NCBI GenBank assembly: GCA_964019415.1 | Contig: OZ025882.1 | Coordinates: 2,706,427 to 2,770,426, forward strand | Direction: 5' to 3' | Length of the DNA: 64,000 nucleotides | Source: Ianthella basta | Lineage: Eukaryota > Porifera > Demospongiae > Verongiida > Ianthellidae | Part shown: positions 6,477 to 62,754 of the stretch, piece by piece | How positions within the stretch are numbered: the stretch's first letter is position 1 | How the letters are laid out: every line of letters begins with the position of its first letter | The notes under the pieces: generated by a model | Seen by the model: the letters and a program-made list of their open reading frames with translations, nothing else | The model's database searches: none | Told to the model about the DNA's origin: nothing | Program-made: the position numbers and the translations under genes

Positions 6477-6501
6477 GTGTGTATGCATGTGAGTGTGTGC
6501 A

Positions 6502-6573
<72 letters not shown>

Positions 6574-8038: not shown

Positions 8039-8083
8039 AAGCTTGTCTAGTGTATCACTTGTGGTGATACACTAGACAAGCTT
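8039..8083. repeat. Perfect 20-bp-arm hairpin
   Basis: Two perfect 20-base inverted arms (AAGCTTGTCTAGTGTATCAC and its complement) are separated by 5 bases. It lies in an intron of gene A. The corresponding place in the other tandem copies lacks the duplicated arm. Confidence 0.9.
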
Positions 8084-8632: not shown

Positions 8633-9239
8633 GTATGTATGGTAGTCCACAAGACTGCATTAACAGCTGTTTGTTGGCTTGTGCTACAGTATAATGTACT
8701 CTGCATATTGCTTTTGTTTTGTGCTGCCTAGTGGGGTGTCAAAATTACATCAGGCCTTCACTTACTCCCCATCTTTACTATATACCACAATAGCCGAATG
8801 GAGAATGCAGATTAAAATGCTTGTCAATGCAGAAATAGTCAGACCTTTATATTTAATGGACCTTGTGCATGCCGTCATAATTATGGCATACAATTCACTA
8901 GTAGTTTCACCTACTGAGTGATACCGGTGTTATAAACCACCACCTTGTGGATGTGTGAGTCTATGCTGAGCATTTATGTATTTCATTGGAGTACTCTTGC
9001 AATGAAGGCACTAAAGTGCCAAACCCTTGGCATAATAAGCTATATAGAAAGTTTCATTCATCTGAATCAAAATGTTAATTAGAATGCATGGTTCTGCATT
9101 AAGAGCTGGGATTTGGTCAAATGTACTGCATAGAAGAATGCGAGCAATTGTATTTACACTGTAGTAAACTATACTATTTTCAGACTTGCATTAAGGCAAC
9201 AATGCTGACTCTGAAATATGGGCAATTATTATAGCAACT
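8633..9239. repeat. Intron segment repeated at 11.42-12.03 kb and 13.17-13.53 kb
   Basis: This intronic segment and its NPxY exon are present three times. The copies at 11.42 and 13.17 kb are more alike, so duplication seems stepwise. Short open frames in it are shared only because the DNA is duplicated; I do not call them genes. Confidence 0.75.
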
Positions 9240-10275: not shown

Positions 10276-10313
10276 ACTCTGCTAGCTATTTATAGAGGTG
10301 GTAACCAGTCAGT

Positions 10314-10558
10314 GTGCAGCAATCTAACAATTGCAACATTATGGCAAATATTAAGAGCAGCCAACACATTAAGCTGGATGTGGCATCGTTGAAGGCTAAT
10401 AGTGCACTTGCATCCAAAACTGTAACACTTTCATCACTGGAGATCCTTGATGACTTCCAGAATGTGAGTATGAAGATCAAAGTGTTGAAAGTGAAGGACC
10501 GAGTGGAATTTGGGGGAAGAATGAAACAGGCTCTGCAGGGCATGAAATACCTCACTCA
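10314..10558 (+). pseudogene. Fragment resembling an RPA-like OB-fold protein, copy 1
   Basis: The open frame encodes LDVASLKANSALASKTVTL, DDFQNVSMKIKVLKVKDRVE and GGRMKQAL. The pattern (DDFQ, then alternating hydrophobic strands, then a Lys-rich turn) resembles the start of single-strand DNA-binding OB-fold proteins of the RPA70 kind. Only about 75 residues are present, and the reading then runs into low-complexity sequence. The same fragment is repeated at 12061-12291. It is probably a processed or repeat-borne fragment rather than part of gene A. The family call is tentative. Confidence 0.3.
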
Positions 10559-11292
10559 ATGGAGTATTGCCCTGAGTACATGGCTATACCTTCCTTCAGG
10601 CCAAAGAACACACCTTCCTTCAGGCAAAAAACACCACTTGGTCCAGAGCACCCACCAGAGATGCATGGCCTTACAGTGACCATGTTGTGTATGGTTGGTA
10701 TAACACTGGTAGTGTTACACCTTATCAGCTTAGTATACCAAACTCAGCATCAAAGAGGTGTGTGTGTACTTGGGTGGGGGGTGCGGGTGAGGGTGAGGGT
10801 GAGGGTGGGGGTGAGGCAGTTACTTTCTTGTACGTATTTGCTCTGAACATGTATTAATCCATTATACATTATAGTAGTCCGGGGGGTTTGTGGAACCATA
10901 GAACTTATACTTGTGGTTTGCAGAGGTTATCTTTCTTTTTCCTTCATGGATGCCTGCCATGTTTCATATTATCGTTCACATTGACTTCTGGTTTTTACTA
11001 TATAGACTTGATTCGCTGTCGTTCCACATTTGAATCTACACTGATAATCATCACACCAGCTATAATTTTATTTCTAGCTAGCTGTAACAGTAACAGTGGT
11101 TGCTGAGGGCATCGGGGGACAGGCATCGGGCGCCGTAGCTCGCCGAAGGCTGGCCTCTCTGCTAGTACATACTATAGTTCTCAACATAGTCCTAGTGGCA
11201 TAGGAATAACTTCATTGTGCCTCATAGGATTTGGTGGCCTCTTATAACTGAAATGAGGGTTGTTAAAAAATATCTTATTGCACATTATACAG

Positions 11293-11418
11293 AGGTGGAT
11301 GGACTAGTGATTATGCAGAGAAATCCATCATATGATCCACTGGATAAATTGGGTACAGCTGAGACGGAGGCATCTGGAACGTATGTGTTAGCAGATGATG
11401 AAGTGTACCAATCCATTG
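11293..11418 (+). CDS. Gene A NPxY-type tail exon, copy 4
   Basis: A 126-base phase 1-1 exon encoding EVDGLVIMQRNPSYDPLDKL, then GTYVLADDEVYQSIG. The donor is G|GTAAGT. It has DPLD in place of DALD and D-D-E before VYQSI. It sits in the first copy of the 1.75-kb tandem repeat. Confidence 0.7.
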
Positions 11419-12060
11419 GTAAGTACACTAGTCCACAAGACTGCATTAACAGCTGTTTGTTGGCTTGTGCTACAGTATAATGTGCTCCATGTATTGCTCC
11501 TGTTTTGTGCTGTCTAGTGGGGTGTCAAAATTTCATCAGGCCTTCACTTACTCCCCAACTTTACTATATACCACAATAGCCGAATGGAGAATGCATATTA
11601 AAATGCCTGTCAATGCAGTAATAGTCAGACCTATATATTTAATAAACCTTGTGCATGCTGTCATAATTATGGCATACAATTCACTAGTAGTTTCACCTAC
11701 TGAGTGATACTGATGTTATAAACCACCACCTTGGGTGTGTGGGTCTATGCTGAGCATTTATGTATTTCATTGGAGTACTCTTGCAATGAAGGCACTAAAG
11801 TGCCAAACCCTTGGCATAATAAGCTATATAGAAAGTTTCATTCATCTGAATCAAAATGTTAATTAGAATGCATGGTTCTGCATTAAGAGCTGGGATTTGG
11901 TCAAAAGTACTGCATAGAAGAATGATAGCAATTGTATATACACAATAGTAAACTATACTATTTTCAGACTTGCATTAAGGCAACAATGCTGACTCTGAAA
12001 TATGGTCAATTATTATAGCACTACTATGCTAGCTATTTATAGAGGTGGTAACCAGTCAGT

Positions 12061-12291
12061 GTGCAGCAATCTAGCAATTGCAACATTATGGCAAATATTA
12101 AGAGCAGCCAACACATTAAGTTGGATGTGGCATCGTTGAAGGCTAATAGTGCACTTGCATCCAAAACTGTAACACTTTCATCACTGGAGATCCTTGATGA
12201 CTTCCAGAAAGTGTTGAAAGTGAAGGACCGAGTGGAATTTGGGGGAAGAATGAAACAGGCTCTGCAGGGCACGAAATACCTCACTCAATAG
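12061..12291 (+). pseudogene. Fragment resembling an RPA-like OB-fold protein, copy 2
   Basis: A near copy of 10314-10558, lacking about five codons (VSMKI region) and ending in a stop just after KYLTQ. See the first copy for the basis of the call. It arose by the 1.75-kb tandem duplication. Confidence 0.3.
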
Positions 12292-12504
12292 AGTACTGCC
12301 CTGAGGACATAGTTATACCTTCCTTCAGGCCAAAAAACACACCTTCCTTCAGGCAAAAAACACCACTTGGTCCAGAGCACCCACCAGAGATGCATCGCCT
12401 TATAGTGACCATGTTGTGTATGGTTGGTATAACACTGGTAGTGTTACACCTTATCAGCTTAGTATACCAAACTCAGCATCAAAGAAGTGTGTGTGTACTT
12501 GGGT

Positions 12505-12516
12505 GGGGGGGTGCGG

Positions 12517-12549
<33 letters not shown>

Positions 12550-12560
12550 GGGGTGAGGCA
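12505..12560 (+). repeat. GGGTGA-rich G-tract array
   Basis: About five GGGTGA units are followed by GGGGGTGAGG. A shorter version lies near 10784-10820, and other G-rich versions near 5888 and 8137. Four or more G-triplets in a row could form a quadruplex on the plus strand. Confidence 0.85.
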
Positions 12561-13046
12561 GTTACTTTCTTGTACGTATTTGCTCTGAACATGTATGAAT
12601 CCATTATACATTATAGTAGTCCGGGAGGTTTGTGGAACCATAGAACTTATACTTGTGGTTTGCAGAGATTATCCTTCTATTTCTGCTTTTTCCTTCACGG
12701 ATGCCTGCCATGTTTCATATTATCGTTCACATTGACTTCTGGTTTTTACTATATAGACTTGATTCGCTGTCGTTCCACATTTGAATCTACACTGATAATC
12801 ATCACACCAGCTATAATTTTATTTCTAGCTAGCTGTAACAGTAACAGTGGTTGCTGAGGGCATCGGGGGACAGGCATCGGGCGCCGTAGCTTGCGGAAGG
12901 CTGGCCTCTCTGCTAGTACGTACATACTATAGTTCTCAACATAGTCCTAGTGGCATAGGAATAACTTCATTGTGCCTCATAGGATTTGGTGGCCTCTTAT
13001 AACTGAAATGACGGTTGTTAAGAATATCTTATTGCACATTATACAG

Positions 13047-13172
13047 AGGTGGATGGACTAGTGATTATGCAGAGGAATCCATCATATGATCCACTGGATA
13101 AATTGGGTGCGGCTGAGACGGAGGCATCTGGAACGTATGTGTTAGCAGATGAAGGAGTGTACCAATCTATTG
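13047..13172 (+). CDS. Gene A NPxY-type tail exon, copy 5
   Basis: A 126-base phase 1-1 exon encoding EVDGLVIMQRNPSYDPLDKL, then GTYVLADEGVYQSIG; donor G|GTATGT. It is very close to copy 4 and lies in the second 1.75-kb repeat. Confidence 0.7.
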
Positions 13173-13786
13173 GTATGTACACTAGTCCACAAGACTGCAT
13201 TAACAGCTGTTTGTTGGCTTGTGCTACAGTATAATGTGCTCCATGTATTGCTCCTGTTTTGTGCTGCCTAGTGGGGTGTCAAAATTTCATCAGGCCTTCA
13301 CTTACTCCCCATCTTTACTATATACCACAATAGCTGAATGGAGAATGCATATTAAAATGCCTGTCAATGCAGTAATAGTCAGACCTATATATTTAATAAA
13401 CCTTGTGCATGCTGTCATAATTATGGCATACAATTCACTAGTAGTTTCACCTACTGAGTGATACTGATGGTATAAACCACCACCTTGTGGATGTGCAGGG
13501 TCTATGCTGAGCATTTATGTATTTCATTGGAGTACATTTGCAAATAGTAGCTTTCTTAATTTGTGAACTGTGCATAACGCTGTGTAAGAGAAATGTAATC
13601 TGTTATGGTATTTCATAGAAACAAATGTATAGTACATAATATCCGTAACATATCTACTATAAAGACATATTCTACTTCTGTAAGTTTCTATTTCATAGTA
13701 CAACATTTCATCATGCTTCAGTGAGCAGCTAGGGTACCGTGAATCTTGTTGATCACTCTCTGTACTTTACTCCACTATACCTACAG

Positions 13787-14789: not shown

Positions 14790-15310
14790 TAGGTTTTTCA
14801 CCTAACTCAGAGGCAGATGGTAGGTGCCTGTAGACAAGGTCTGGTCTGCAGTATGTACATACTAATTATATATTTCATAGTACATAGGGTCTGTGTATTG
14901 CAGTATGTGGTTTGGGAAATATGTGACTATTGGAATTTACCCTGTAGCAGTGTCTTCCTCTTGCTGTTACTCTATTGACACATAAATATTATTATGCTAA
15001 TGTAATGTAAATTGCTAATTAAATAAAGCTTATTAATATAATGTATGGTTGGATTGCAACATTTGCTCCTGCAGACTATCAAAGAGCATTTGATGACTTC
15101 ATATTTGTCTGTGGTGCAGAGTACAAGAAGAAAGTGCACATTCAGATATTGCGCTCAGTGGGTGTGTGAGTGTACAGCAGAGTGACTGAGGAGGTGTACA
15201 TCAATACATTAGGAAGTGAGAGGATAGCTACTGTTCCAGTGTCCATGTCAGTGATGACAGGAGACATGATTGGGTTCAATGGACAATTGCAACTATACAC
15301 TTTACGTGCG
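14790..15310 (+). pseudogene. Broken linker and ectodomain B copy
   Basis: At 15075, after a ctgcag acceptor, reading gives AFDDFIFVCG, then HIQILRSVG, RVTEEVYIN and VPVSMSVMTGDMIGFNG. This is ectodomain B of gene D (46428-46865) with about 35 codons missing from its first half, a GGA-to-TGA change after RSVGV, and no C-terminal third. A degraded linker exon lies just upstream (about 14790-14830), matching 46148-46192. The flanks also match gene D introns, so it is a remnant of a segmental duplication. Confidence 0.75.
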
Positions 15311-18025: not shown

Positions 18026-18150
18026 TCAAACATAGTCAGAGGTTTCTTGCATGGTTGAGTAGCATAGGTTTGGCTCCAGCTTCACTCCTTCCATTGAAGC
18101 ATATGATGGGCTGTCCTGCATGGTCACAACTATGTTTACTTATGCAAGAT
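18026..18150 (-). pseudogene. Tail exon 2 relic (NPxY family)
   Basis: An early TAA in frame is followed by readable VVTMQDSPSYASMEGVKLEP and CYSTMQETSDYV. The first NPSY has become SPSY. The paralog is 52334-52458. Confidence 0.75.
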
Positions 18151-18390
18151 CTACAGTATATATACATAGGACAGTGAAGTTGACAAGCAATCATGTGAGA
18201 AGGTTCTGCTTTCTGCTTAAGGATTTACAGAAATGTACAATTAGATCTTTGTCTAGAAATGAATGAACTGCCCTGTTTTGTTTAATTGTGCTCTGATCAA
18301 TTTGGGGCACTGTGAGTTGTATAGTTTATAAATGTCATCTGGTGCTATACATTGGCTACCACAAGACTGTGAATTAGTTGTGTCACTTAC

Positions 18391-18506
18391 CACTAGTTTG
18401 CTCATAAGTAGGGCTCGCCTCCATTACCAGACTCCTCCTTGGACTGCACAGTAGGATGAGTTGTGCTCCATGTTCATGACAGTACTGGCCTCCGGAGGGA
18501 GATGAC
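18391..18506 (-). pseudogene. Tail exon 1 relic (NPxY family)
   Basis: On the minus strand, GHLPPEASTVMNMEHNSSYCA is followed by a 2-base insertion after the GG codons, which shifts the frame and gives a stop. Splice sites (CTGTAG acceptor, GTAAGT donor) are still intact. Confidence 0.75.
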
Positions 18507-19697
18507 CTACAGCAGGACAGATGTGCCATTCACATCATAAAATGAGGAAATTATTGTTCGAACAAGTGGAGTTGTCTGTACTGGTTTGCTCTGTTTGCTT
18601 CCCATGTTCTTCTGCACAGTCATTCTCACATTGTGATCACTCTACAGAATGCACTCTAACTTAACAGTACTTGTGACAAGTTAAAGACATGGCTAACATT
18701 ACTCCACATACAATAGTCTTGTCTAACAGGAGATGGTGCCACTACTATATAGTTTCTCACAAAGCGAGGGGATCCGTGGCAGGATGTGACCCTAGCCACA
18801 GTGACTGTAAACTTTCCCTGTCAATGACAACAGGTGATTGCAGCTGATGACATGAAGCAACTGCTCAATAAACTTTAAAGATGAGCACTACATGTCCCTG
18901 GGGTTCATGACCAGGAAGGAATGCATGTAAATCATTGATCGAAGCAGTTGAGATTTATTTCTTCCACCTACAACAACAACTCAACATCCACGAATTGGGT
19001 GGCTACTTCCCTCAGTGGAATGAGTGCCCTGAGGCAGAGATCATACCATCCCACTAGTCCCACCTTTACTAGGGATGATTATAACAGAGTTTGTGGATAT
19101 GAGGAAAACAGAGCAGGTAGAATTCATTGCACATGATCACAGTGGAAGCTCTACTAGGCTGAGGGGGGTGCTTCACTTCATACAATTCCTTCGCAGGGTC
19201 AAAGTGCTGGAACACAGACACCACCCCAACTAGCTGGATTCTTGCAGAGGTGGTTACTCTCCACAAATGATAAGGAAAGCCTGCTGCTACGTATGTCACC
19301 TTGTACCAACACTGTTCCACATTGAGATTCTAGCAGAGAGTAGTATATACGTACGTAAGTCAAATATTGGTGCAGTGAAAGGGTGCAGTCTGGTGGACCA
19401 CCTAGCCATACACTGAGGCAGCAGTGGATGTATGTACAGCTGAAGCAGGGCAGCCTACATTGCAGTCTTCAATGTAAAGGCTGTCTCTAGCTGACGCCAA
19501 GGAGCTTGGTCTGGCATGATATATCAAGTGGCCTGACAGGTGGGTTGGTCACAAATGGAAAACAAATGAAAAGGGGCCTGAGGGTGACCATGTGGATGGC
19601 TCTGTATATTGATGACTGATATTGATGACGGTCTGAGGTGTGCATATATTACATATGGCCAGCATCATACAAACCCACAGAAAGGTATTAAGCTCAC

Positions 19698-19809
19698 CTA
19701 TAGCTGCTTTCGTTTCCCTCCAAGTTACTTTCCGTGCAATCAGTACTGCAGCAACAATGACTGATACAATAATGAGGATGACCACCACAGCCACCACTGC
19801 ATGCTCCAA
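19698..19809 (-). pseudogene. Membrane-helix exon relic
   Basis: Minus-strand reading gives VVAVVVILIIVSVIVAAVL, then IARKVTWRETKAAIG and a GTGAG donor, closely matching 50247-50615. The Ser/Thr-rich stalk portion is missing. Confidence 0.75.
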
Positions 19810-21618: not shown

Positions 21619-22660
21619 TCAGTTGCCCTTTAGGTACTCTACCAATGCCCTGCGGATAGCTTCAGCATCCTCATGCTCGCACTCCTGTGAGGCAACAGTA
21701 TCACATGGACTCTGAAGGTGCAGTGACTCTACCTCTTCAGTCCATTCTTCATTAAAAGTTTCACCATGTATCTCACATACATTGTGCAGGACACAGCATG
21801 CAATATCCATCTTTGTAACATAGTGAATATGCATGTCATTTTGCTTAAGCAATCTTCACCAGCGTGCCTTCAGCTGACCAAAAGCATTTTCTGTTACAAT
21901 CCTGACCCTTGAGAGATGATAGTTAAAATGCTTTTGATCATGTGTCAGATTACCTCTGAATGCATATGGTTTCATTAGCCAAGTAGTCAAAGGGTAGCCA
22001 GAGTCACCGACTAGCAGCACAGGCACATTCACACCTTTCAAACCATGCACTTCACCCTGTAGAACTTTACCATCACATGCTTTGGCATACAAGGAAGAGT
22101 TAACTAACACCCTTACATCATGGACACACCCAGGGAAACCACAAAAAACATCACAAAAAATATACTCGTGATCTACAACAGCCTGTAGGATCACTGAATA
22201 CCAGCCCTTGCAGTTGTAGTAATCTGTATGATTTAGATGTGGTGCTTGCACAGGAATATGACAGCCATCAATTCCACCAGCACACTGGGGGAAATTCCAC
22301 TTTGACTCAAACCCCCTGATCACATTTTGTAGCTTTTCTCCAGTAGAAAACTGAATATAGCTTGGTAAAAGTATGTTCACAATAGCATCAACCACACTGT
22401 GAACAATAATGCACACAGTTGATCTTGCAACACCAAACAAATGAGCAATGGTGCGGTATTCAGCGGGAGTAGCCAGGCACCACAAAGCAATCGCTACGTG
22501 CTTTTCCACAGTAATTGCTTTTCGAAAAAGTGTATTCTTCGTCTTCAAGATGGGCCTCAATTGTTCGCAGAGATACAAATATGTTTCTTCGCTCATTCTG
22601 AAATTTGTGAGTCAGTCATGGGAGCTAAACGTCTCCATGACGACAAATCCCACCAGTGAC
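21619..22660 (-). mobile_element. Decayed PIF/Harbinger transposase (HARBI1-like)
   Basis: Minus-strand reading gives the DDE nuclease of PIF/Harbinger transposons, which cuts and rejoins DNA at the element ends. Visible in order: HWWD (near 22659), TNFRMSEETYLYLCEQL, a helix-turn-helix-like stretch (HLFGVARSTVCIIVHSVVDA), GGIDGCHIPV (first Asp), LLVGDSGYPL (second Asp), RVRIVTENAFGQLKARW (Glu), and CCVLHN near the end. Decay: a TGA at 21856-21858 right after KARW, a TGA at 22612-22614 where family members usually have Trp before the NFRMS motif, and a frame change between HWWD and VVMETFSS. The usual MYB/SANT partner protein is absent. Autonomous activity is not possible without help. Confidence 0.9.
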
Positions 22661-32010: not shown

Positions 32011-32124
32011 GTCATCCCCCTCCAGAGGCCAGTACTGTCATGAACATGGAGCACAACCCATCCATCAGTGCAGTCCAAGGAGGATTGGTAATGGAGGCTA
32101 ACCCTGCTTATGAGCAAACTAGTG
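32011..32124 (+). CDS. Gene B tail exon T1
   Basis: A 114-base phase 1-1 exon, acceptor ctgtag, donor GTAAGT. It encodes ASTVMNMEHNPSISAVQGGL, then VMEANPAYEQTSG. The first motif is NPSI where paralog 51984 has NPSY; the second (NPAY) is intact. Confidence 0.7.
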
Positions 32125-32361
32125 GTAAGTGACACAACAATTCCTCACAGTCATGTGGTAGACAATGTTTTACACCAGATGACATTTAATGGCTATGCTA
32201 CTACTCACAGTACCCCAAATCAGTCAAAGCACAATTAAAGGGGAACACGGCACATTGTTCATATCTAGACAAAATTCTAACTCTACATTTCCGTACATCG
32301 TAAACAGAACCTTTCACAAATGATTACTTGTCAACTTCACTGTCCTATGTATATGCTGTAG

Positions 32362-32508
32362 GTCTTTCAGAAGCAAACACAGTTGTGAATATGCAGGCCA
32401 ACCCATCCTATACTCCAATGGAAGATGGAGTGACACTGGAACCAAACCCTAGCTACTCAGCCATGCAAACAGTCTCTGTCTATGAGCCAATCAATGACAA
32501 AGGAAAAG
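32362..32508 (+). CDS. Gene B tail exon T2
   Basis: A 147-base phase 1-1 exon encoding NMQANPSYTPMEDGVTLEP, NPSYSAMQTVS and VYEPIND. It has two NPxY motifs and a third Tyr. The donor GTTGGT is weak. If unspliced, translation ends two codons later (KGKGW, TAG), so this could also be a last exon. Confidence 0.65.
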
Positions 32509-32885
32509 GTTGGTAGACCATGATATAGACTTTAATGTGGTGCTCATTTCTATAGAGTTCATTTAGCAGTTGCTTCATGTCATCAGTTGCAACCACCTGG
32601 CCCTCAAGTATAAGAGAGGGAAGATTTACAGTATCTAGGGTCACATCCTGCCACTTCCCAGTGCCAACATCTCCTGTTGGACAAACTAATATTTGTGGAG
32701 TGCTGTTATAGTTAGAGTGCATTCTGAAGAGTGATCACTATGTGCATACGCAGAAGAACATGGGCAGCAAACAGGGAGAGCAATTATATATATTTAATTA
32801 AACCTACTGGTACAGGCACCTCCACATGTTTCAACTGATAATTAGCTCACTTTAGGACATGTATGGCACATTTGTCCTACTGTAG

Positions 32886-32999
32886 GTCATCCCCCTCCAG
32901 AGGCCAGTGCTGTCATGAATGTGCAGCACAGCTCACCCTACAGTGCAGTGCAAGGAGGACTGGTAATGGAGGCTAACCCTGCTTATGAACAACCTAGTG
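32886..32999 (+). CDS. Gene B tail exon T3
   Basis: A 114-base duplicate of T1 encoding ASAVMNVQHSSPYSAVQGGL, then VMEANPAYEQPSG. The first NPxY has become SSPY; NPAY is kept. Acceptor and GTAAGT donor are intact. Confidence 0.7.
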
Positions 33000-33276
33000 G
33001 TAAGTGACACAACAATTCATCACAGTCATGTGTTAGCCAATATAATATATAATATATCACACTAGAAGATCCGAAGTTTTAATAGATATGCTATATGCAA
33101 CTTCTAAATTGATCAAAGCATACTGATAGAAGGAAAACATGTCAAGCATTATTTCATTTCTAGACAAATCTCTAATTGTACTTTTCTGTACACCTTAAAC
33201 AGTACCTTCCACACCTGATTACTTGTCAACTTTATACTATCCTCCGTATATGCCCTATATATAATTTATGCTGTAG

Positions 33277-33423
33277 GTCATTCAGAAGTAAACACAAATG
33301 TGACTATGCAGGCCAACCCATCCTATACTCCAATGGAAGATGGAGTGACACTGGAGCCAAACCCATGCTACTCAACCATGCAAACAGTCTCTGCCTATGA
33401 GCCAATCAATGGCAAAGAAAAAG
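33277..33423 (+). CDS. Gene B tail exon T4
   Basis: A 147-base duplicate of T2 encoding VTMQANPSYTPMEDGVTLEP, NPCYSTMQTVS and AYEPINGKE. Two NPxY motifs. The donor is GTACTA, weak at position 4. Confidence 0.65.
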
Positions 33424-34097
33424 GTACTACAATGTGTCTAGGCATTGATGAAGTGGTAGTTTTTGTCATGCAGACACTTCTGAATATGGTTGGACATCCC
33501 TAGTAACATCCCTTAATAACTGCTACAACTCACAAAACTCAAAATTAATCATGGTCTTAATAACTGCTTTTTTCATAATTATTACAACAAATACAATATA
33601 CTGGGCAACATACATGCAGTAATAGTAACATTTGGTCTGTACATTAGGGGGAGGAGTGAATGTGTTATGATGGTTAGATGAAAGTGAGAGTAATGATTTA
33701 GTCCATCTGGAGTCTGGACTCCACAACAGTGACATCAGGAGTGCTGTCATGGAGTGCGTGGCCTGTTGACGATCTTGTCCCCCGAATGCACATCACTGCT
33801 GATCGTAACAAACTGAAGTTGAGCCTGGCCCGCAGCCAGCCAATAGTTGTGCTGTAGGCCATGTCTTGCTTCTCAGCCAGCCTTGAAGCCAGGTGCTTCA
33901 GGAAGGTGCTTAATAACTGCTACAACTCACAAAGCTCAAAATCAATCATGGTGCCATTAAAAAGGAAACACAACTATAGTCAAAGTTCAGTTAACTTTGT
34001 ATAATTTCGGTTAATATAGATGTATATAATTATGCTATTTGTACCTTCTACACATGATTACTGTGTCAATTTCACTAGCCTGCGTGCCCTACTGTAG

Positions 34098-34408
34098 ACG
34101 TTCCTCTTTCAGAAGTGAACACAGCTGTGAACATGCAGGACAACCCATCTTATTCGCCAATGGAAGATGAAGTGACAATGGAGCCAAACCCATGCTATTC
34201 AGCCATGCAAGCAAATACTGACAATGAGCCGATCGATGGTAAAGGAAAAAAGTTGGTAGACCATGATATAGACTTTAATGAATTGCATCTTGCTCTGCAC
34301 TGGTATATAGTTTATCATGCAGACACTAGCTGCAGCTGCAACCTAAGGGTACAAGGGAATGCTACAGAAGTGTGTGATCTTGTGTTATTCATCAGCATGC
34401 ATGTTTAG
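34098..34408 (+). CDS. Gene B tail exon T5, candidate last exon
   Basis: Begins in phase 1 after actgtag. It encodes NMQDNPSYSPMEDEVTMEP and NPCYSAMQANT, then reads through the position where T2 and T4 would splice (GKGKKLVDHDIDFN) to a TGA at 34406-34408. The last 45 or so residues look intron-derived (they match DNA after T2), so the true end may be an unseen donor. Confidence 0.55.
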
Positions 34409-42497: not shown

Positions 42498-42573
42498 ATG
42501 GCAGTGTGTTGGTGGCTAGCTGGCAGTATATTCCTCTTCGCGTGGAGACTGGAGACAATTCTGGCAAAAGGAG
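42498..42573 (+). CDS. Gene D exon 1: signal peptide
   Basis: ATG at 42498, hydrophobic MAVCWWLAGSIFLFAW, then RLETILAKG; donor G|GTAAAT leaves phase 1. The paralog at 58652-58727 has identical length (76 bases), the same phase and MAVCWWLAG, so both start and donor are supported by conservation. Confidence 0.75.
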
Positions 42574-45500
42574 GTAAATGTAGAACACGTACGGTACAAA
42601 GGTACCTTTAAATCGCGATGTATAATTCTTTGCAGCTTCGAGTTTGTAGCGAAGGACCAGGTGTTTGCTGTTCGCATTCACGATTGGTAAGACTGTTTAA
42701 CTGATTGGCTAACCTTCTTTGACTGCTATACTACATGAATCAGACAGCACGGCAGTGCTGTCAATGTAGGAATGGCGGTGGTTGCTTGTGTCTTGTAATA
42801 CAAACGAAAAGTAGCGCCACTCATTTTAACAGAGTGAAGATTAGAACCTCGACAAAAGTAACCGCCAACGAGGAAGGGATGTTGTATAGATTACAGAGCA
42901 AACCTTACTTCAAAGCGCCAGCGCGCCCCGTGTAGAAAGCGTCGTCACCTATTCCGGTATTTCGTCGTCTTCTTCTTCTTCTTCTCCATCAGCTGTAGCT
43001 CACGCACGCCGTGAAATTGGAGAATGATTTGACTACATTGCCTTCTGCCCGTTTCCCTGGCTGGTTAGAAACAGTAGCGTGCAAATATCAATCATTACGG
43101 TTACCGGGCCTGTCCAGAGACGTTGTTATGCGAGAGACGCCATTTTACGATGACCGTTCGGAGGCGTATTCGAGACAAGTTTCGGTCGAGGCTAGCTTGT
43201 GCGGCATTTCAAAGGACATCCGTGGTCATGTACGTATTATACTGCTATGTTTGATTAATACTCGGTTAGCTTCCGTTCGCCATTTTGCAGCTTCTTCTGG
43301 TGGGCTAGTGCGGAAAAGTGCTAGCTACAGGATAAGGTCCTGTATCTGCATGGATGCCCTGTGGTTGCAACTTAGCATGTGACACTTGCACACAATAAAA
43401 AGCATATAAACTAGAATTAAAAAAATGTGTGAAACAGGGGTGCAGGTGAAATAGTAAGTGGGGTATTCCATCATCACATAGCTATTGTGACTGTAATTAA
43501 GATGGTCTATGTACCATGGTGACACAAATGAAAAACAACATTCATAGCTTCAAAAGTTGTCTAAGACTTTTATTGTGGCTGTGTCCAAGTGTATCTGTTC
43601 TGCACTACAGATTTGCTCAATCTATAAAATGTGCATCACAATCTGGGATTAAGGTATGTAGTTTGGGACAATGCCACTGGCGTTGCTAAATGTATTAAGG
43701 CACAATTGATGTCTTCACTTTAACTTGCTAGGTGGTGTTAGGACCCACTCAAGCATTGGTCACAGTAGCAGTTTTGAATGAAACTACTCTATTGCCATAA
43801 AGCTCAATCTTTATGCGGCGCGTCAGCTAAGCGTAAGCTTACTCACTGTCAGCCACGTCAGCCACAGCGTTTCCCAGAGCCGTGTACGTAGCTACCAAAG
43901 CCTGTTCCCCGCGTAGCTTGTAACCAGCTGCAGTTCCAATTTCTTGGCTTTGGTTCGTAGCCGGATTGTTGCTGTACCCTGTTTATCGACGAAACAAGTA
44001 AGCCGGGTGACCTGTGCATCGTATCGTATGTTATGGCGCCACAATTGTTATCACAGCTGCAGTTCTCTTTAGTTGCAGGGATCTACGGGATTTAGACACC
44101 CGGTATCTAAATGATTTAGATACCGCGCGAAATACACGAGAAAGTCTACGAGTTTTAGAAACATCGCTTAGAACGCCCGTTACCATGGTAGCGGGATCTA
44201 TATTTAGATAGGCATTTCATCATTGAGGTCACTATACAGGCAATGCATGTGCAGCAGATTGCAGCATTTTAGTGAACCTCACAAGCACTGATTGAAATTT
44301 ATTTCCTCAGACAATTTCCATGACTTCAACTGTGTACCACGTGACAGAGCAGATGATGGCTACCAGTACATAGCCCCCAACCTGACCTTCCCCTGTGATG
44401 GGGTTGTGACCAAGTGGAAGATTGGAACAGAGAATGAGAACAATGCTACAGTATACCTCCAGATATGGCAACCTAATGGAACAGCCTACAGCCGTGTAAC
44501 TGAGACTGTTTATACCCACAGTGGTGGGGAAGCAATAGCAGAAGTCTCCACAGACATGACTGTATCAGCAGGGGATGTTGTTGGGTTCTATATGCAAACG
44601 TATAGGGAGGGGCTTAGATTGGCTTGGGCTTCAGTACCTGACCACACCCTCCTGCGAGGAAGTAGGAGTGCTCAAGGTGTCACTCCTGTAGCAACATTCA
44701 GTGACGTCTCTACAACTATCTTAAGTTCATCTCCTCTTGTGTCAGTTGAATTTGGTAAGTGTACCATGACTGTGTGATTACATGTTGTGCTCTTGACTGC
44801 TCTTGAGTTGTTATCTGTGTACCAGTTGTACAGTGTGAGCTGCAGAGACTGCATGGCTACTGATTAAATTTAAGACTGCTTTATGATAATTGCTAAAGCT
44901 AGCTAAATGCAAGCCTTTCCTTCCCTGCACATAATACACCATATTATACCAAACCATTCTACACCATCACTGGAGTTGGTCAAGACAGCATGGTGGTCAA
45001 AGCAGACAACCTGTTGTGCGACAATATGTGAATGGTTCAAGTGGTACTGTTGAAATGGTGCCACTGCACAGGCTTGGCTGATGACAGTAGGATCACTGGG
45101 GTTTGTGCCACCTGCCTGCTACAGCACTTTGGTGTCACAACAAGGCAGGGGAGGGGGCATAGGCCCTATTAATTCACTGCCAGACCTTCCCCCGAACAGG
45201 CTACACAGACAGCTTTAATTTGTGCTGTACAGTGTAGTGTAAGTTTAAGTGGTGGATGGGATATCTGCTTCTTCTATATACATGTATTCATGCACCAAAG
45301 TTTAAACACTTGAATTTGATTTAAGCAGAAGTGGAAAATTAGGGAGGAGCATTAGCCTGGAACACAGCTGGACTAGGAGTCAGGTTTGTTCATGTGAGAC
45401 CTTTCATTAACAGTCATTTAATAGGGCTAGTGTACGTCCTAATGTCATAATTTGAGACTTGACAGTGGCAAACCACTGCAAACGTCGCACCTAAACAAAC

Positions 45501-48500
45501 CTGATGCCAGCCATCTTCCTGGCTAATGCTCCTTCTGAATTTATGCCATTTCTATTGAAACGATAAGTGTTCTAACTTCAGTGGATACAAAGCAAAAGTA
45601 GCAGAAATCCTTTTCACGAACAATACATGCACCACAATGATGTGCCCCAGTCGGGTGCAACAGCTGTCTTTGGCTCTTCATCTCTATAGGATGTTAGGGG
45701 AAAGATCTGGCAACCCCCATGCAGCCTTGCTGGGACACCCACAGGTGTAGCTGGCTGGTGACATAATTATATAAACCCAATGATTTTATTATCATTAATA
45801 CTACTATAGTACTGTATACTTCACATGTGTGATTAACATGACTGAATATAGCAATGTCATACTTGGAATAATTTGAATAGCATTTGACTAGCAGATCATA
45901 ATCACATACATGACATCGTCATAGTTTTTCTTACTCATTGTCAATTTCCTCTAAGATCATAATTGCATAACACAATAAAACATACATAATAATAAACATA
46001 ATAATGCATATAATAAATATATGTAAATATGTAAATAAATATAATAAAATATATGTAAATATACATAATAATAAAAAATGCATAACACATGACATGTACA
46101 CTGTCATATAGTTTTGCCTACTCTATTTTCAATTTCCTTACATATAGAACCAAGTGCTTCTTCCTGTTCTACACCCAACTCAAGTGGAAATGGTAAGTAG
46201 CTGCTGGTCTAGTTTGCAATTCAGTGTAGAAGGGACTGTATATAGAGTGATTTTGGAAAATGTGACTCCATGGGAGCTTACCTGGTACTCTGTAACAATG
46301 ACTTTGTCTTGAGGAGACTCTCTTGCAAAGTGCCAATACAGTGTGTAAGCTGACCATTGTATTGTATTATTGATTATATTTTGCCAAATGTTTGAATGGT
46401 GTTGCACCTTTTCACCTCATCCTACAGACTGTCTAGGTGCATTTGCTGATTTCAATTTTGTTTGCGGTTATGAAGTCTCACGCAATACCCAGTACATCAT
46501 TCCACAACTCAACTTCTCCTGTAATGGTACTGTGACTCAGTGGAAGGTGGGACTGGAGGAACGTGACAAAAAGGAAAGAGTTAACATTCAGATATGGCGC
46601 TCAATGGGTGTAGGAGAGTACACCAGAGTGACTGAGGAGGTGTACACTAAAACAGTTTATGAGAAGATAGCTATAGCTACTGTTCCAGTGTCCATGTCAG
46701 TGATGGCAGGAGATATGGTCGGGTTCTATGTTCCTAGACTGCTGCGACTTCACACTGCACCTGATGTGGGCCTTACCATGTACACTACTAGGGGAAGTCC
46801 CACCTCATCACTAGCTGCACTTGAGTCTGTTGTGGGACCATCTCCATACATCTCAGTTGTGTTTGGTGAGTGATTGTAGCTATAATGTAATGACACAATT
46901 CACTGCTACTTGTAAGCAGACCCTAATGTTCACAGGATAGTCTGCACCGCTATTTGCAGGGCCGTCGGAGGCGGTACGGCCGGTACGGCCATGGCCGTAC
47001 CACTTTTTGAACAGCTAGCAGTTTTTTTTTTAATTTTCAAAAGCAGTGTTTTTAGCTACTAAACCAGATAACCCCTACCCTACCTTAACTATCCGTTGAG
47101 GAAACAAAGAAGCAATGATCTTAGGTTGTTAGCAGATGCAATGAAACAGGAGATACCAAGTAGGGTCCAATACTTCACGATTTGCAAGCACGCTCCTTTC
47201 TTCCGCCATGTTTTGTTACGTAATCGATTCAAAACGTAATAAAGATGGAGGCCAGCAGCGCGTACGTAGGCAATCGACCCACATCACCTGGCGCTACGAA
47301 GCATGGCTTGTAGCACCACACGTCAGCGAATCGCTATACCCTTAACGGTGATGTAAAAATTCAAAATGGTCTCATCGTCGAAGCACGTGGACCTAAGAAA
47401 CGCCGACAATATATGACAAGCCTCATCAGCCTCGCGCAGGTTTTTAGTACCCTAAGCGTCAATTCGGTGTGAAGAAGATCGTTTCTCGAACTTTCCAAGA
47501 GAGCTGGTATACCAGGTGAGGATTTTGCATAATAGCTAGCAACTTTGAAATGCTAGCTAGCTAAATCAAAGTCTAGCTATTGTATCTAATATTTAGCTAT
47601 ATAAACGTATGTGTAGCCTATGCATGGGCACGTATCTAGCTTCATGCAATGCTGAACGTTTAGTAAACATGATTTAGCTGCCTTTTGCTGTATATCACTG
47701 ATATCATTGTGAAATCTATGTAACCCTCTTAAAACGACTTACTGACTGATCGAGAGTGCATGCTCGGCTAGCAAAGGCATCACTATTCTTGAGGCACAGA
47801 TCCGTAGCAAACATTATCTGTATGATAATGAAAAGTAGCTAAAAAAAAATTTCCGCTCGCTTCGCTCTCAACATTTTGTATCCTTCACCCAATGGCCTTA
47901 CCACTTCTAAATTGCCTCCGACGGCCCTGATTTGTTATACACAATAAATTTGATCACATCAATCTGTATACTTACAAACTGTGCACACTATACACCACAC
48001 ACACCCATAGTACATTTGCAGCACAGAAGTGCAACATACATTTGGTGGCTTTATCATATACTCAACATAATTATGCAATTCTGTATGTTTGTTTGTGCAA
48101 TAGTTAAGTTTTAATACTAATATCTGTTCATTCGTGATTCAAACAAACACTGCAATACAGAATGTTGCCTACCTCCAATGGATTATGGAAAACAGATTAG
48201 GAAGTGTCTACCACAGCTATAATATGAGTACACAAAAATGGTAGACCAAGTAGACCTCCATTATTATTTCCATTGCAAGAGATTCTGGATATTCAGAGAG
48301 TGTCTATAATAGGTAGTCTTGCAATTAGAGATAATTGCTTCCTTTCCTATTAATGAATGCTTGGTTAAATGCGGTGTCCTGTGGCATGAAAATCAGCTAC
48401 AATGGCAGCTGGGTGCACTGCCTAGAATTGTGGTCCAATAGCTATGGGCTAAAGTCTTCCCCATGCAGTCTAATTAATAACGTCTGATACCTGAACAATA

Positions 48501-51500
48501 GGTGTATATTCAAACCATTCTCTTGATTTAAGTGGTGTGATAGCGGAACACTCTTTTATGAACTTTGTGATAATATTATTTGTAACGAATTATCATGATA
48601 TTCGACATTACTGTGATAGCAGCAGCTGACCATGAACACAACAAGTAAGAGATCATGATACAAAACAAAATACAAACCAATTCCAATAACTCTCAGACGT
48701 ACCGCAGCAATGGGAAATGCTTTCTTAAATCAAACGAAGGACACCTACTAATCTCTCTGTATTCCACTGGGTGAAGAGATCTGCACATATAATTAACAAC
48801 TGAGGGGAATTAAGCATTGCAATCAGGGAGCTAGCAAGGTACTGCGTATACGCACTGGATGATGCAAACATGCACTATTGCAGTGAGAAAGATCAAGAAG
48901 TGGCTGTCATGGGCCTCACAGGGAGTGATACAACAACTATCAACTATCATCCCGATGCCATCAAAATTTCATTCATCTCGGAACTTCTCTACCAAGGCCA
49001 AACATCCCTAGCTTCCTACCAACTTTATCGGTATCTCACATTTCAAGATGTCATGATCACTGATCTAGGAACTATACACACTAAAGAGTCCTTACTTAGG
49101 TGCTAAGGTGCCCCTACCATGCCACATCACTCCTACAGATGAATAAAAACTCCATCCATGATTGGTTATATAGAGGCAGTTGACCAATCAGTGTGGAAAT
49201 TGTACAGAGAAAATGGAGTTGGGACCTAGATTCACAAAACCAAACCTTCTAGACTTGCAACAGAAATTCATTGCTATTATAGAGCCAGAAGTCAACAGTA
49301 GGATGCGGGAGCAGACATAGGCAGGTCGCTCAGTTAGTAGGACAACTCTCCTTCTTTTGTGAGAACAATTCAGAAGCTTGAACACCCTCAACCCCCCACC
49401 CCTTTCAGGTGATGAACAATGAGAGTAGACTCCAGATGTCAATCCTGCCAGCTACCACCACTACTATACCTCATTGTGCAATGCATGTCCTGCTTGCCTG
49501 ACCAACAAACATATGGCAGTGTGTTACACCTGGAGATGACCAAGCATGAAAATCTAGAGATGTTCCCTGATCTCGAAGGTCCATGTCTGGCATCAAGTCC
49601 CGACTGCTAGGAGCCTAAGTGCTGGCAGAGCTGCTTGCACGGTCTGGAAATCAAAACTGCGAATATCCCTCCTCCACCATACCCAATGGAGCCCTTGTCA
49701 TTTCTATTTACCCAGACACTGTGGCATCACTTTGTGATGCTAACTGTGATATATACAACTTGCCAGAAAGCCTCACCGAATGCTGCAAGTAAATCAAGAC
49801 CAACTGCCATCTAGTCTTGACTGAACTAGGCTCATCACCATAACAATTTGTAATTAGATCTCATTGTGAGCTTTTATCAATGCATGCCATAATAATACAG
49901 TTGTATCTGTATATCACTATGCCACATAATTATTTACTATGAAAATAATTGTAGATAAAACCAGGAGTGCATATTGTGCTAACTCCTGATCAAACACTAA
50001 ATATGGCATTCACCCTTGCCATGCCTAATCCCACTTTCAATTGTGCGCTTGAACCATGTGACTAGATAATTATTATGCTTGGGTGTTTAGTGTTCCTCAA
50101 CCTTGGCTATGTCAGTTCTAATGCATGGTGTTTGTATATGCCATCACAGCAAGGGTGTTTGCTCTTTGTTGTGCACATATATACTGTGAAGCAGTGCAGT
50201 ATGCTTTAGTATAGCAGTTACTTATATATATATTTACTTTGTGCAGTGCCTGATGTCACAAGCACCTCAGTCTCATCAATGACATCAACTGCTCCACCTT
50301 CTCTAAGAACATCTGCTGCAGTCTCATCAGTGACAGTAGCCACAAGTGTCTCACCTAGTACTGCAGATTTGTCCTACTTTTCATTCTCATCAGAAAAGCT
50401 CCCAATTGCTGTGGAGTCATCCACCCCACAGAGTAGTACTGTAATAGCTGTGGGTGGAGGGAGCAATGTTGGTCTCACCCTCTCAGGAAGTGGGTCTGCA
50501 GCTATCATTGGAGCAGTGGTGGCTGTGGTGGTCATCCTCATTGTTGTGTCAGTCATTGTTGCTGCTGTACTAATTGCATGGAGAGTGAATAGGAGGGAAA
50601 AGAAAGCAGCTATAGGTGAGCAGAACGTAATACCTTTCCATGGGCTTGTATGAAGCTGGCCATATGTAATATCCACACCCCAGACCATCTATATACAGAG
50701 CCATCCACATGGACATCCTCCCCTTTTTATTTGTTTTCCATATGTGACAACCCACCTGTCAGGCCACTTGAAGTATCATGCCAGACCAAGCTCCTTGACA
50801 TCAGCTAGAGACAACCTTTAGATTGATGACTGTAATGTAGGCTGCCCTGCTTCAGCTGTACATACATCTACTGCTGCCTCAGTATGGCTAGGTGGTCCAC
50901 CAGACTGCACCCTTTTACTGCACCAATGTTTCACTTACTACTCTCTGCTAGGATCTCAGTGTGAAACAGGGTTGGTAAGTACAAGGTGACATATATACGT
51001 AGCAGCAGGTTTCCCTCATCATTTGAGGAGAGTAACTACCTCTGCAAGAATCTAACTAGTTGAGGTGGTGTCTGTGTTTGAGTGCTTTGAACCTGAAAAG
51101 GAATTGTGTGAAGTGAAACACCCCCCTCTGCTCAGTAGAGCTACCACTGTGATGTTGCGCAATGAATTCTACGTGCTTTGCTTTTCTCATATCCACAAAC
51201 TATGTTGTAATCTTTCCTAGTGTATAGGTACTGGTGGGATAACTCCAATCTAAACCTTGGGGCACTCATGGTAATGAAGGAAGTAGCCATTCTATTTGGG
51301 GTGTTAAGTTGTTGCTGTAGGCAGAAGAAATGATTCTCAACTGCTTCCATGATTTACGAGCATTCCTTCCCGGTCATGAACCCCAGGGACATGTGATGCC
51401 CATTTTTAAAGTTCACTCAGCAGTTGCTTCATGTCATCAGTTGCAAACACCTGGTCATCAAGTATAAGAGAGGAAAGGTTTACAGTGGTTAGGGTCACAT

Positions 51501-52458
51501 TCTCCTCACTTTATGAGAAACTATAGTAATGACACCATCTCCTGTTGGACAAGACTATTGTATGTGGAGTACTTTTAGCCATGTCTTTAACTTGTCACAA
51601 GTACTGTTAAGTTTGAGTGCATTCTGTAGAGTGATCACCATGCAAGAATATAATTATATGCAGAAGAACCTGGGAAGCAAACAGAGAGAGCAATATATAT
51701 AATAATTTATTAATTTGGCATACTTGTACAGGCAACTCCGCATGTTTGGACACTAATATTCTCAGAAAGGGTTGGTTCTCTAATGCCAGCTTCACAACAG
51801 GGTTGAAAACATTGCCGACGTTTCGACCAGAGCATCTGGTCGAAACGTTGGCAAGGTTTTCAACCCTGTTGTGAAGCTGGTATTAGAGAACCAACCCTTT
51901 CTGATGCCTGAGCCAGCTGAGAAGCCCTCACTTCACTAATATTCTCATTTTATGATGTGAATGACACATCTGTCCAGCTGTAGGTCATCCCCTTTCAGAG
52001 GACAGTACTGTTATGAACATGGAGCACAACCCCTCCTACTGTGCAGTTCAAGGAGGACTGGTAATGGAGGCTAACCCTGCTTATGAGCAAACTAGTGGTA
52101 AGTGACACAACAATTCATCACAGTCTTGTGGTAGCCAATGTTTAACACCAGATGACATTTAATAGCTATGCTACAACTCACAGTTCCCCAAATTGATTAA
52201 AGCACAATTAAACGGAAACAGGGCAGTTCATTCATTTCTAGACAAAGATCTAATTGTACATTTCTGTACATTTTAAGCAGAACCTTCTCACATGATCACT
52301 TGTCAACTTCACTGTCCTACGTATATGCTGTAGGTCTTGCAGAAGAAAAAACAGTTGTGACTATGCAGGACAACCCATCCTATGCTTCAATGGAAGGAGT
52401 GAAGCTGGAGCTAAACCCATGCTACTCAACCATGCAAGAAACATCTGACTGTATTTGA
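42498..52458 (+). CDS. Gene D: two-ectodomain receptor with NPxY tail (spliced model)
   Basis: Seven exons join in one frame, all internal boundaries in phase 1: 42498-42573, 44311-44754, 46148-46192, 46428-46865, 50247-50615, 51984-52097 and 52334-52458. The predicted protein of about 537 residues has a signal peptide (about 1-24), ectodomain A (about 26-173), a Ser/Thr linker, ectodomain B (about 189-334), a Ser/Thr-rich stalk, one helix, and a tail with three NPxY motifs. It should be a type I plasma-membrane receptor. NPxY motifs are known docking sites for PTB-domain adaptors and for clathrin-linked uptake. I recognise no named family for the ectodomains. The first intron holds a K-family relative and the fourth a hAT-like MITE. 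The tail looks shortened at its end. Confidence 0.7.
42930..43420 (-). mobile_element. Divergent K-family relative in gene D intron 1
   Basis: In inverted orientation this shares blocks with the middle of family K: the CCACGGATG region, the CTTGTCTCG-ATACGCCT region and the GAAGAAGAAGAAGA tract. Plus-strand reading of 43011-43382 includes MRETPFYDD, corresponding to the family's KTPFYDD. The hairpin arms are not present. It is absent from the gene E intron. Confidence 0.55.
44311..44754 (+). CDS. Gene D exon 2: ectodomain A
   Basis: 444 bases, phase 1-1. Key features: FHDFNCVP, QYIAPNLTFPCDGVVTKWK, VYLQIWQPNGTAYSRVTETV, STDMTVSAGDVVGFYMQ, and SPLVSVEFG at the end. Regular alternation of hydrophobic residues suggests an all-beta fold. 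NLT and NGT are N-glycosylation sequons. The paralog in gene E is 60924-61376. I do not know a named family. The fold is inference. Confidence 0.8.
45290..45595. mobile_element. Foldback element, family J
   Basis: Long inverted arms of roughly 100 bases: GAAGTGGAAAATTAG, GAGGAGCATTAGCC and CAGGTTTGTT on the left pair with AACAAACCTG, GGCTAATGCTCC and GCCATTTCTATT on the right. Other copies at 62038-62345 and 62958-63240. Confidence 0.7.
46148..46192 (+). CDS. Gene D exon 3: Ser/Thr linker
   Basis: A 45-base micro-exon encoding EPSASSCSTPNSSGNG between the two ectodomains; donor G|GTAAGT. The paralog at 62710-62754 has the same length. A single Cys is conserved. Confidence 0.75.
46428..46865 (+). 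CDS. Gene D exon 4: ectodomain B
   Basis: 438 bases, phase 1-1. FADFNFVCGYE, QYIIPQLNFSCNGTVTQWKV, NIQIWRSMG, YTRVTEEVYT, VPVSMSVMAGDMVGFYVP and SPYISVVFG match ectodomain A block by block (QYI-x-P-x-L-x-F-x-C-x-G; Q-I-W; YxRVTExVYT; SxxAGDxVGFY; SPxxSVxFG), so A and B arose by exon duplication. NFS and NGT are glycosylation sequons. Confidence 0.8.
46957..47929. mobile_element. hAT-like MITE in gene D intron
   Basis: Perfect 16-base inverted ends CAGGGCCGTCGGAGGC, flanked on each side by ATTTG, so the target duplication is 5 bases rather than the usual 8. 973 bases. No transposase is recognised; nested GGTACGGCC repeats lie near the left end. Confidence 0.8.
48100..50246. other. Rest of gene D intron 4, with possible decayed coding
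   Basis: About 48870-49850 reads in patches like old protein (ISELLYQGQTSLASYQLYRY; NIPPPPYPMEPLSFLF) in shifting frames. I recognise no family. It may be a decayed element. Confidence 0.3.
50247..50615 (+). CDS. Gene D exon 5: stalk and membrane helix
   Basis: 369 bases, phase 1-1. About 80 residues rich in Ser, Thr and Val (TSVSSMTSTAPPSL) form a mucin-like stalk. Then AAIIGAVVAVVVILIVVSV and IVAAVLIAW form one helix, followed by RVNRREKK, a stop-transfer signal facing the cytoplasm. Donor G|GTGAGC. The minus-strand relic at 19698-19809 matches it. Confidence 0.8.
50616..51983. other. Gene D intron 5, duplicated block
   Basis: From about 50743 it is copied at 30937-32010 and inverted at about 18507-19560. 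It contains the foldback insertion at 51765. No exon seen. Confidence 0.7.
51762..51904. mobile_element. Foldback insertion with 14-base target duplication
   Basis: A near-perfect palindrome with arms of about 68 bases, centred on CCAGA-GCATC-TGG, followed by about 29 bases. The insertion (51765-51933) is bounded by CACTAATATTCTCA at 51751-51764 and 51934-51947. The paralogous introns near 31970 and 18550 are empty. Confidence 0.85.
51984..52097 (+). CDS. Gene D exon 6: tail T1
   Basis: 114 bases, phase 1-1. STVMNMEHNPSYCAVQGGL, then VMEANPAYEQTSG: two intact NPxY motifs. Donor GTAAGT. Paralogs are 32011-32124, 32886-32999 and the relic 18391-18506. Confidence 0.8.
52334..52458 (+). CDS. Gene D exon 7: tail T2, shortened
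   Basis: VVTMQDNPSYASMEGVKLEL and NPCYSTMQETSDCI, then TGA at 52456-52458. Paralogs T2, T4 and T5 of gene B continue with (Y)EPI(N/D). Here the DNA still encodes a related ELIDG in another frame, so a small length change cut the tail. Two NPxY motifs remain. Confidence 0.65.
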
Positions 52459-58651: not shown

Positions 58652-58727
58652 ATGGCAGTGTGTTGGTGGCTGGCTGGCTGTAGTTTACTCTTCGCATGGA
58701 GATCGGAGACAATTCTGGCACAAAGAG
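58652..58727 (+). CDS. Gene E exon 1: signal peptide
   Basis: ATG at 58652; MAVCWWLAGCSLLFAW, then RSETILAQRG; donor G|GTAATA, phase 1. It differs from gene D exon 1 at a few residues and keeps the frame throughout. Confidence 0.75.
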
Positions 58728-60923: not shown

Positions 60924-61376
60924 AGAACTTCTACGACTTCAGCTGTGTGCCAACTGGAGGAGGCAGTAGAACACCTGACAAGTACCAGTACATAGCCCCC
61001 AACCTGACCTTCCCCTGTGATGGAGTTGTGACCAAGTGGAAGATTGGAACAGAGAATGAGAATAATGCTGCAGTATACCTCCAGATATGGCGACCTGATG
61101 GAACAGACTACAGCCGTGTAACTGAGACTGTTTATACCCACAGTGGTGGGGAAGCAATAGCACAAGTCTCCACAGACATGACTGTATCAGCAGGGGATGT
61201 TGTTGGATTCTTTATGAATGGAGGTGATGATGGGCTTAGAGTGGCTTGGGTTCCAGTTCCTGACTACACCATCCTGCGAGGAAGTAGGAGTGCTAGAGGT
61301 GTCACTCCTGTAGCAACATTCAGTGATGTCTCTACAACTATTTTAAGTTCATCTCCTCTTGTGTCAGTCAAATTTG
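60924..61376 (+). CDS. Gene E exon 2: ectodomain A
   Basis: 453 bases, phase 1-1. It matches 44311-44754 closely (QYIAPNLTFPCDGVVTKWK, YLQIWRPDGTDYSRVTETV, DMTVSAGDVVGFF). Differences cluster near the N-terminus (CVPTGGGSRTPDK against CVPRDRADDG) and after VVGF (FMNGGDD against YMQTYRE). Donor GTAAGT. Confidence 0.8.
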
Positions 61377-62709: not shown

Positions 62710-62754
62710 AACCAAGTGCTTCTTCATGTTCTACACCCAACTCAATTGAAAATG
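62710..62754 (+). CDS. Gene E exon 3: Ser/Thr linker
   Basis: 45 bases, EPSASSCSTPNSIENG, donor G|GTAGGT, phase 1-1. The ectodomain B exon should follow beyond the window edge. Confidence 0.7.

Follow-up and report, generated by a model that had tools for sequence, protein, structure and literature searches.

The window analysed here, a stretch of 64,000 nucleotides at C15:2706427-2770426 of the Ianthella basta assembly (209 Mb, 96 contigs), contains on its plus strand a gene, G1 (42498-52458), whose seven exons with AG/GT borders were joined by script into a frame of 536 amino acids without a stop. The predicted protein begins with a signal peptide and continues with ectodomain A, a linker, ectodomain B, a stalk with a transmembrane (TM) segment, and two tail segments with NPxY motifs. 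Exon 1 (42498..42573, +) provides the start codon and a segment that by eye resembles a signal peptide, and it ends in phase 1 at a GT that lies at the identical place in 12 of 13 plus-strand hits of this exon and 3 nt off in the remaining one. Exon 2 (44311..44754, +, phase 1-1) encodes ectodomain A, 147 amino acids plus split codons, for which an all-beta model was obtained. Exon 3 (46148..46192, +, phase 1-1) is, in the joined model, a linker of 45 nt, and exon 4 (46428..46865, +, phase 1-1) encodes ectodomain B, which by the joined model and by alignment belongs to the same family as A (41% identity over the alignment of the two G1 domains). A Ser/Thr-rich stalk, a single membrane span that was assigned by eye, and basic residues are encoded together by exon 5 (50247..50615, +, phase 1-1). 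The cytoplasmic part follows on exon 6 (51984..52097, +, phase 1-1; tail 1 with NPSYCAV and NPAY) and exon 7 (52334..52458, +, phase-1 start; tail 2 with NPSYASM, NPCYSTM, and the stop codon). In G1, these NPxY motifs follow a single membrane span. Among the plus-strand exon hits, NPxY is present in 12 of 14 for tail 1 and 19 of 22 for tail 2, and the 22 tail-2 hits contain 29 NPxYxxM motifs. In G1 and the other joined models, exon borders coincide with domain borders. A preliminary description of this DNA had held that all exons of the gene begin and end in phase 1, and indeed all six introns of the joined G1 lie in phase 1; strictly, the statement applies to the internal exons, as the first exon has such a border at its end alone and the last one at its start alone. 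The signal peptide, the two ectodomains, and the linker of that description were recovered, but its stalk/helix is one exon that includes the membrane span, and its tail is divided between two exons.

G1 belongs to a much larger group of genes. The genome search gave at least 81 matches for ectodomain A, all of them on C15 among the matches listed, and at least 87 for ectodomain B. An array at C15 2.72-3.37 Mb comprises at least 21 A and at least 31 B exons that are nearly full-length and stop-free, plus broken copies (L020 with six stops, a B exon at 2810742 with a TAG, and fragments), and its A and B matches lie on the plus strand throughout. A second group at 4.28-4.445 Mb occupies both strands with at least 16 relatives of nearly full length, and it also has several fragments. 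Within the window, the next array gene, G2, starts with a signal-peptide exon (58652..58727, +) and continues with an ectodomain A exon (60924..61376, +, phase 1-1) and the first of two linker exons (62710..62754, +, phase 1-1), before it runs beyond the window end. On the other side of G1, there are an inverted 3' cassette of the same family with a TM piece, a broken tail 1, and a tail 2 (18029..19800, -), a group of tail exon hits with no adjoining ectodomain hits (32011..34222, +; two of the tail-1 and three of the tail-2 type), and a broken B-like ectodomain fragment with stops inside (15075..15310, +). Near the window start, we also noted a receptor-like neighbour series, with a candidate stalk/TM exon at 570-803 (+) and further on five matches that resemble tails and carry NPSY or NPSH (VIMQRNPSYDALDKLG type), at 5598, 7829, 8485, 11271, and 13025 (+; series 5598-13186), which together are possibly a different NPxY receptor family that adjoins the array. 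Mobile-element frames, named by eye as reverse-transcriptase-like (with a FADD motif) and transposase-like, are found at window positions 2408-2671 (-) and 21856-22611 (-).

The phase of the exon borders was examined over 264 contiguous kb, consisting of the window and L021-L040, in which tblastn located 105 exon hits on the plus strand and five on the minus strand; the plus-strand hits that reached the relevant exon end were counted. The best-scoring splice sites were chosen regardless of phase, using a splice score trained on the same copies, which are related to each other and hence not independent. Among the exon copies, phase 1 was found for 68 of 73 best acceptors (two in phase 0, three weak) and for 67 of 74 best donors (one in phase 0, six weak). 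A plain consensus score gave phase 1 for 62/73 acceptors and 69/74 donors. In a control with 288 unrelated open reading frames and the trained score, phase 1 accounted for 29 of the 71 acceptors and 24 of the 56 donors that exceeded the threshold. The phase-1 borders are not due to chance, as the same borders recur among the copies of the 264 kb.

Eleven gene models could be joined in the 264 kb, nine of which have no internal stop; G14 and G17 are not intact as modelled. Five of the nine carry all seven modules, and these are the ones that also contain A among the seven stop-free models with an intact B. The two others, G15 and G16, lead from the signal peptide directly to B, with neither A nor linker, and in a low-stringency search between their signal peptide and B exons, matches to A or the linker were marginal at most (best E 0.21). 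Splice scores are weak at the B acceptor in G15 and at the TM donor in G16. In G2 and G8, the stop-free model comprises A and two linkers and no B. A clean loss of the whole B exon is ruled out in these two genes by a deletion within the exon: 320 nt are missing internally relative to G10, and a remnant of 124 nt is left, in G2 past the window end at C15:2771103-2771226 (64677-64800 in window coordinates) and in G8 at C15:2849812-2849935 (143386-143509). The remnant, whose splice sites are both retained, contains a stop, so that a membrane form requires the remnant to be skipped, and the frame is kept only then; if it were included, a soluble A-domain protein would result. Tail-exon hits also differ in number among the array genes. 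The preliminary description had proposed that any exon can be lost, duplicated, or swapped in frame, in keeping with extensive rearrangement around the gene. The rearrangement was found, as a block duplication, the inverted 3' cassette, and the orphan tail exons. The proposal itself fits the absence of A and linker from G15 and G16, the doubled linker of G2 and G8, and the tails reused on contigs C22 and C11 (see below), but not the way in which G2 and G8 lost B, namely inside the exon and with a stopped remnant left behind. As the sequence shows, each module has its own phase-1 exon, and the array grows and decays by duplication and deletion of blocks.

The ectodomains were compared with known families and folds. 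Neither the spliced G1 protein nor its two ectodomains matched a Pfam family above the cut-off, and a comparison of 47 aligned ectodomains with Pfam gave a best E of 0.011. This match, to UPF0556/myeloid-derived growth factor, is faint, as is the one in the PDB sequence search (E 0.47), and the candidate was set aside because the fold searches gave other proteins. Ectodomain A is modelled at medium confidence as an all-beta protein with a beta-sandwich, and fold searches with this model gave sugar-binding, TNF-like, and other beta-sandwiches, with no confident match among them. No immunoglobulin model matched in Pfam, and no immunoglobulin entry was prominent in the fold search, although an immunoglobulin fold may still be present. 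The domains of sponge aggregation factors, which we take to be Calx-beta, VWA, and VWD, were absent from the Pfam matches of the spliced G1 protein up to an E of 1. Variation is higher in loops than in strands (entropy 0.80 versus 0.43, p 0.0009; residues 1-11 excluded from the loops, strands assigned by a model whose pLDDT is below 50 at 1-11, 103-111, and 136-147). When pooled, pN/pS amounts to 0.80 for A (p 0.07 against 1) and to 0.69, thus below 1, for B; positive selection was considered as a sole cause and rejected, as neither value exceeds 1.

These data also bear on the question of whether the array is largely a decaying, pseudogene-rich relic of an earlier expansion with few working genes. 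The broken A and B copies, the B remnants with a stop that G2 and G8 carry, the orphan tails, and the two models that are not intact would all be expected from such a relic, and yet the stop-free A and B exons number in the tens, seven models with intact B splice without a stop within 264 kb, strands are more constrained than loops, and pN/pS is 0.67 for the TM exon (four copies) and 0.54 for tail 1 (nine copies). We therefore regard a relic as quite improbable.

The history of the array is best seen in its duplicates. A block duplication that spans at least 25 kb, with pieces of 95.7-98.9% identity, includes G1 and G7. Within this pair, A differs by 5.0%, B by 6.7%, the TM exon by 1.4%, tail 1 by 2.6%, and linker and tail 2 by 0%, whereas the introns differ by 0.8-2.5%, save the short intron before B with 4.3%. 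In intron 4 of G1, about 1 kb (window 46957-47929, +) is absent from the duplicate G7 and looks like a recent insertion. The comparison of A with its flanks covered eight out of nine disjoint closest pairs, and flank bins with fewer than 240 aligned bases or more than 25% divergence were dropped, which concerned one bin of G1/G7, one of G4/G10, and all bins in four pairs. A had diverged above its flanks in three of the four alignable pairs, namely G1/G7 (5.0% versus 1.3%, p 1.6e-5), G2/G8 (2.0 versus 0.6%, p 0.0097), and L010/L015 (6.2 versus 2.8%, p 0.0013), and G4/G10 showed no exon excess (10.6% in both). In the other four of the eight pairs, flanks were unalignable, and the synonymous divergence of their A exons was 0.06-0.13. 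Over 171 pairs formed by 19 A exons, the point at which similarity ends has a median distance from the exon of 99 nt on the upstream and 42 nt on the downstream side, and similarity extends beyond 1000 nt in only five pairs upstream and ten downstream. The differences between G1 and G7 often have both states present in other copies (18 of 22 in A, 20 of 29 in B), whereas random change would lead one to expect 24% and 41%, or 40% and 55% if only transitions are considered; this control weighs all sites alike, and real changes fall on variable sites. In A and B of this pair, synonymous as well as amino-acid changes exceed the intron level.

As the ectodomains have diverged above the introns in G1/G7, and as similar A exons stand beside unalignable introns, our data suggest that ectodomain exons are exchanged among genes, and that this exchange is limited to the exon. 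The ectodomain exons evolve apart from their adjoining introns, and this exon-limited pattern of divergence is a new observation that goes beyond the confirmed exon modularity. Counter to exchange, the PHI test within the ectodomain exons did not find significant recombination, and there is a weak correlation between the A and B distances within genes (rho 0.26, p 0.03; the pairs are not independent), a pattern that is expected from whole-gene duplication. It could alternatively be imagined that mobile elements replace the introns fast while exons are merely constrained, and that the excess in G1/G7 is caused by positive selection and not by conversion. Dispersed repeats do occur in and around the genes, and the additional 1 kb in intron 4 of G1 agrees with this. 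Against it, the synonymous divergence of the four pairs with unalignable introns overlaps with the 0.10 and 0.14 of two pairs with alignable introns, synonymous changes in A and B of G1/G7 are raised together with the amino-acid changes, and changes whose two states both recur in the array exceed random expectation. Intron replacement combined with selection hence seems an unlikely explanation to us.

Further evidence for mobile modules comes from the tails. The tail 2 exon has at least 55 matches in the genome, some of which form series, on C11 and at C15:0.73-0.81 Mb, while two lie as a pair on C22; tail 1 also matches C22 with 76% identity. The block on C22, about 875 nt, consists of tail 1, intron, and tail 2, and has 74-86% DNA identity to the array tails; none of the 39 DNA matches of the array touches the TM exon or the upstream ectodomain of C22. 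This ectodomain is a distant relative of the array ectodomain (profile comparison E 6.5e-6, probability 85%). It is present twice, with 99% identity between the two, and tail matches with an E of 0.001 or better follow the first only. C11 carries a related tail in eight copies, and VWD domains above the Pfam cut-off were found at 4751118 and 4804263, 2.7 and 2.5 kb upstream of two of these tail exons; the portion of the first VWD that lies in the analysed piece is by itself below the cut-off (E 0.032). In the gene of this first VWD, the one gene examined in this respect, the stalk exon resembles the array in its acceptor and start (80 nt, 77% identity), and a shuffle test of the stalk start on the protein level gave a p of 0.001. 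The VWD exon ends and the stalk exon starts in phase 1. No good donor was found for the TM exon of this gene, and the model is incomplete. By the gene models, the same tail module thus stands in different protein contexts, behind a distantly related ectodomain on C22 and behind a VWD on C11. The series at C15:0.73-0.81 Mb contains seven tail-2-like exons on the minus strand and a marginal ectodomain relative at C15:800155 (E 5.7e-4), and it is probably a further receptor array. As separate observations, a tandem repeat (about 3.2 kb) on C21:1535425-1570558 (-) contains two alternating VWD matches, and the assembly has 32 homeodomain matches, which agree with the small homeobox set of sponges but are no proof of a sponge. 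A DNA pattern for the active-site motif of silicatein had 0 hits, a result of little weight, as the motif may be interrupted by introns.

The reuse of the tails also matters for another view of the locus, namely that it is an ordinary lineage-specific adhesion or lectin family, produced by tandem duplication under relaxed constraint, with the phase-1 exons that are usual in metazoans, with no exon exchange and no role in non-self recognition. Class 1-1 modules are, as outlined in PMC8001218, the rule for exon-shuffled extracellular animal proteins, the overall pN/pS is below 1, PHI is not significant, and sugar-binding folds are among the unconfident fold matches. Such a family would nevertheless not be expected to have A exons that have diverged above their flanks in most alignable duplicate pairs, similarity that is confined to the A exon, variation that is concentrated in loops, and a tail cassette behind other ectodomains, and we consider this view somewhat unlikely. 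We find it reasonably probable instead that G1 is a member of a tandem array of single-pass receptors whose ectodomain exons are exchanged and whose NPxY tails signal recognition. For the protein itself, we infer surface expression, a ligand, signalling, and a recognition or immune role, the last of which the preliminary description had likewise put forward as an inference.

The mechanism that we propose is that gene conversion or exon shuffling trades ectodomain exons between genes and diversifies them, and the uniform phase would keep such events from harming the frame. The loops of the putative beta-sandwich may then bind variable ligands, such as cells of other individuals, microbes, or the glycans of either. 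Ligand binding would cause kinases to phosphorylate the tyrosines of the NPxY and NPxYxxM motifs, and the phosphorylated tails would recruit adaptors with PTB domains and SH2 proteins of the PI3-kinase type. NPxY motifs bind PTB domains, and phosphorylated YxxM binds the SH2 domains of PI3-kinase; it is the paired NPxY and the frequent NPxYxxM motifs of the tails that led us to propose diversified recognition receptors feeding one phosphotyrosine signal. The most far-reaching version, in which the array is an allorecognition or microbe-recognition complex formed by an undescribed beta-sandwich family, with exons circulating among about 30 genes and the tail cassette on others, is a tentative possibility and rather doubtful at present.

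Several known systems share features with the array. Symmetric phase-1 modules are a classic sign of metazoan exon shuffling, and the class 1-1 proteins of Metazoa have, like the array, domains on symmetric phase-1 exons that can be shuffled safely with regard to the frame, as summarized in PMC8001218; phase uniformity alone is therefore not new. Unlike in these classic cases, the exchange looks recent and seems to occur within one gene array and to involve a tail cassette together with its intron, and the array ectodomain has no Pfam family. By organisation, the nearest system is the allorecognition complex of Hydractinia, although we do not claim membership: the Alr complex, as portrayed in PMC11067881, also consists of tens of clustered single-pass receptor genes with interspersed pseudogenes and diversified ectodomains. 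The Alr ectodomains belong to the immunoglobulin superfamily, whereas those of the array lack a Pfam match to it and have a predicted structure that, at medium confidence, resembles other beta-sandwiches. Polymorphism and the control of allorecognition have been demonstrated for Alr, whereas the array is known from the sequence of one assembly alone. We know of no NPxYxxM tail cassette in Hydractinia that is common to other ectodomains. KIR and other leukocyte receptors of vertebrates likewise form tandem arrays with copy-number change and related ectodomains on different signalling tails, and in this they resemble the array; their domains are of the immunoglobulin type and their tails contain ITIM or ITAM motifs, as opposed to the NPxY and YxxM motifs of the array tails.

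Sponge aggregation factors are secreted and proteoglycan-like, and they contain VWD domains. The occurrence of VWD in the C11 receptors that share the array tail is thus a likeness to these factors, whereas the G1 receptor is unlike them in that it has no aggregation-factor domain in Pfam. To our knowledge, the receptors of self/non-self recognition in sponges are not settled. Such recognition is known from grafts, its specificity implies a polymorphic genetic system, and aggregation factors are candidate recognition molecules, as described in PMC5450542. In the titles and opening abstract lines of the papers covered, we found no description of such a receptor array in a sponge. The array offers a mapped and testable candidate locus for self/non-self recognition in sponges. 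It shows exon modularity in action, with loss, duplication, exon-limited similarity, and swapping of tails within one receptor system, and it bears on the retention of symmetric phase-1 exons in the cell-surface genes of animals.
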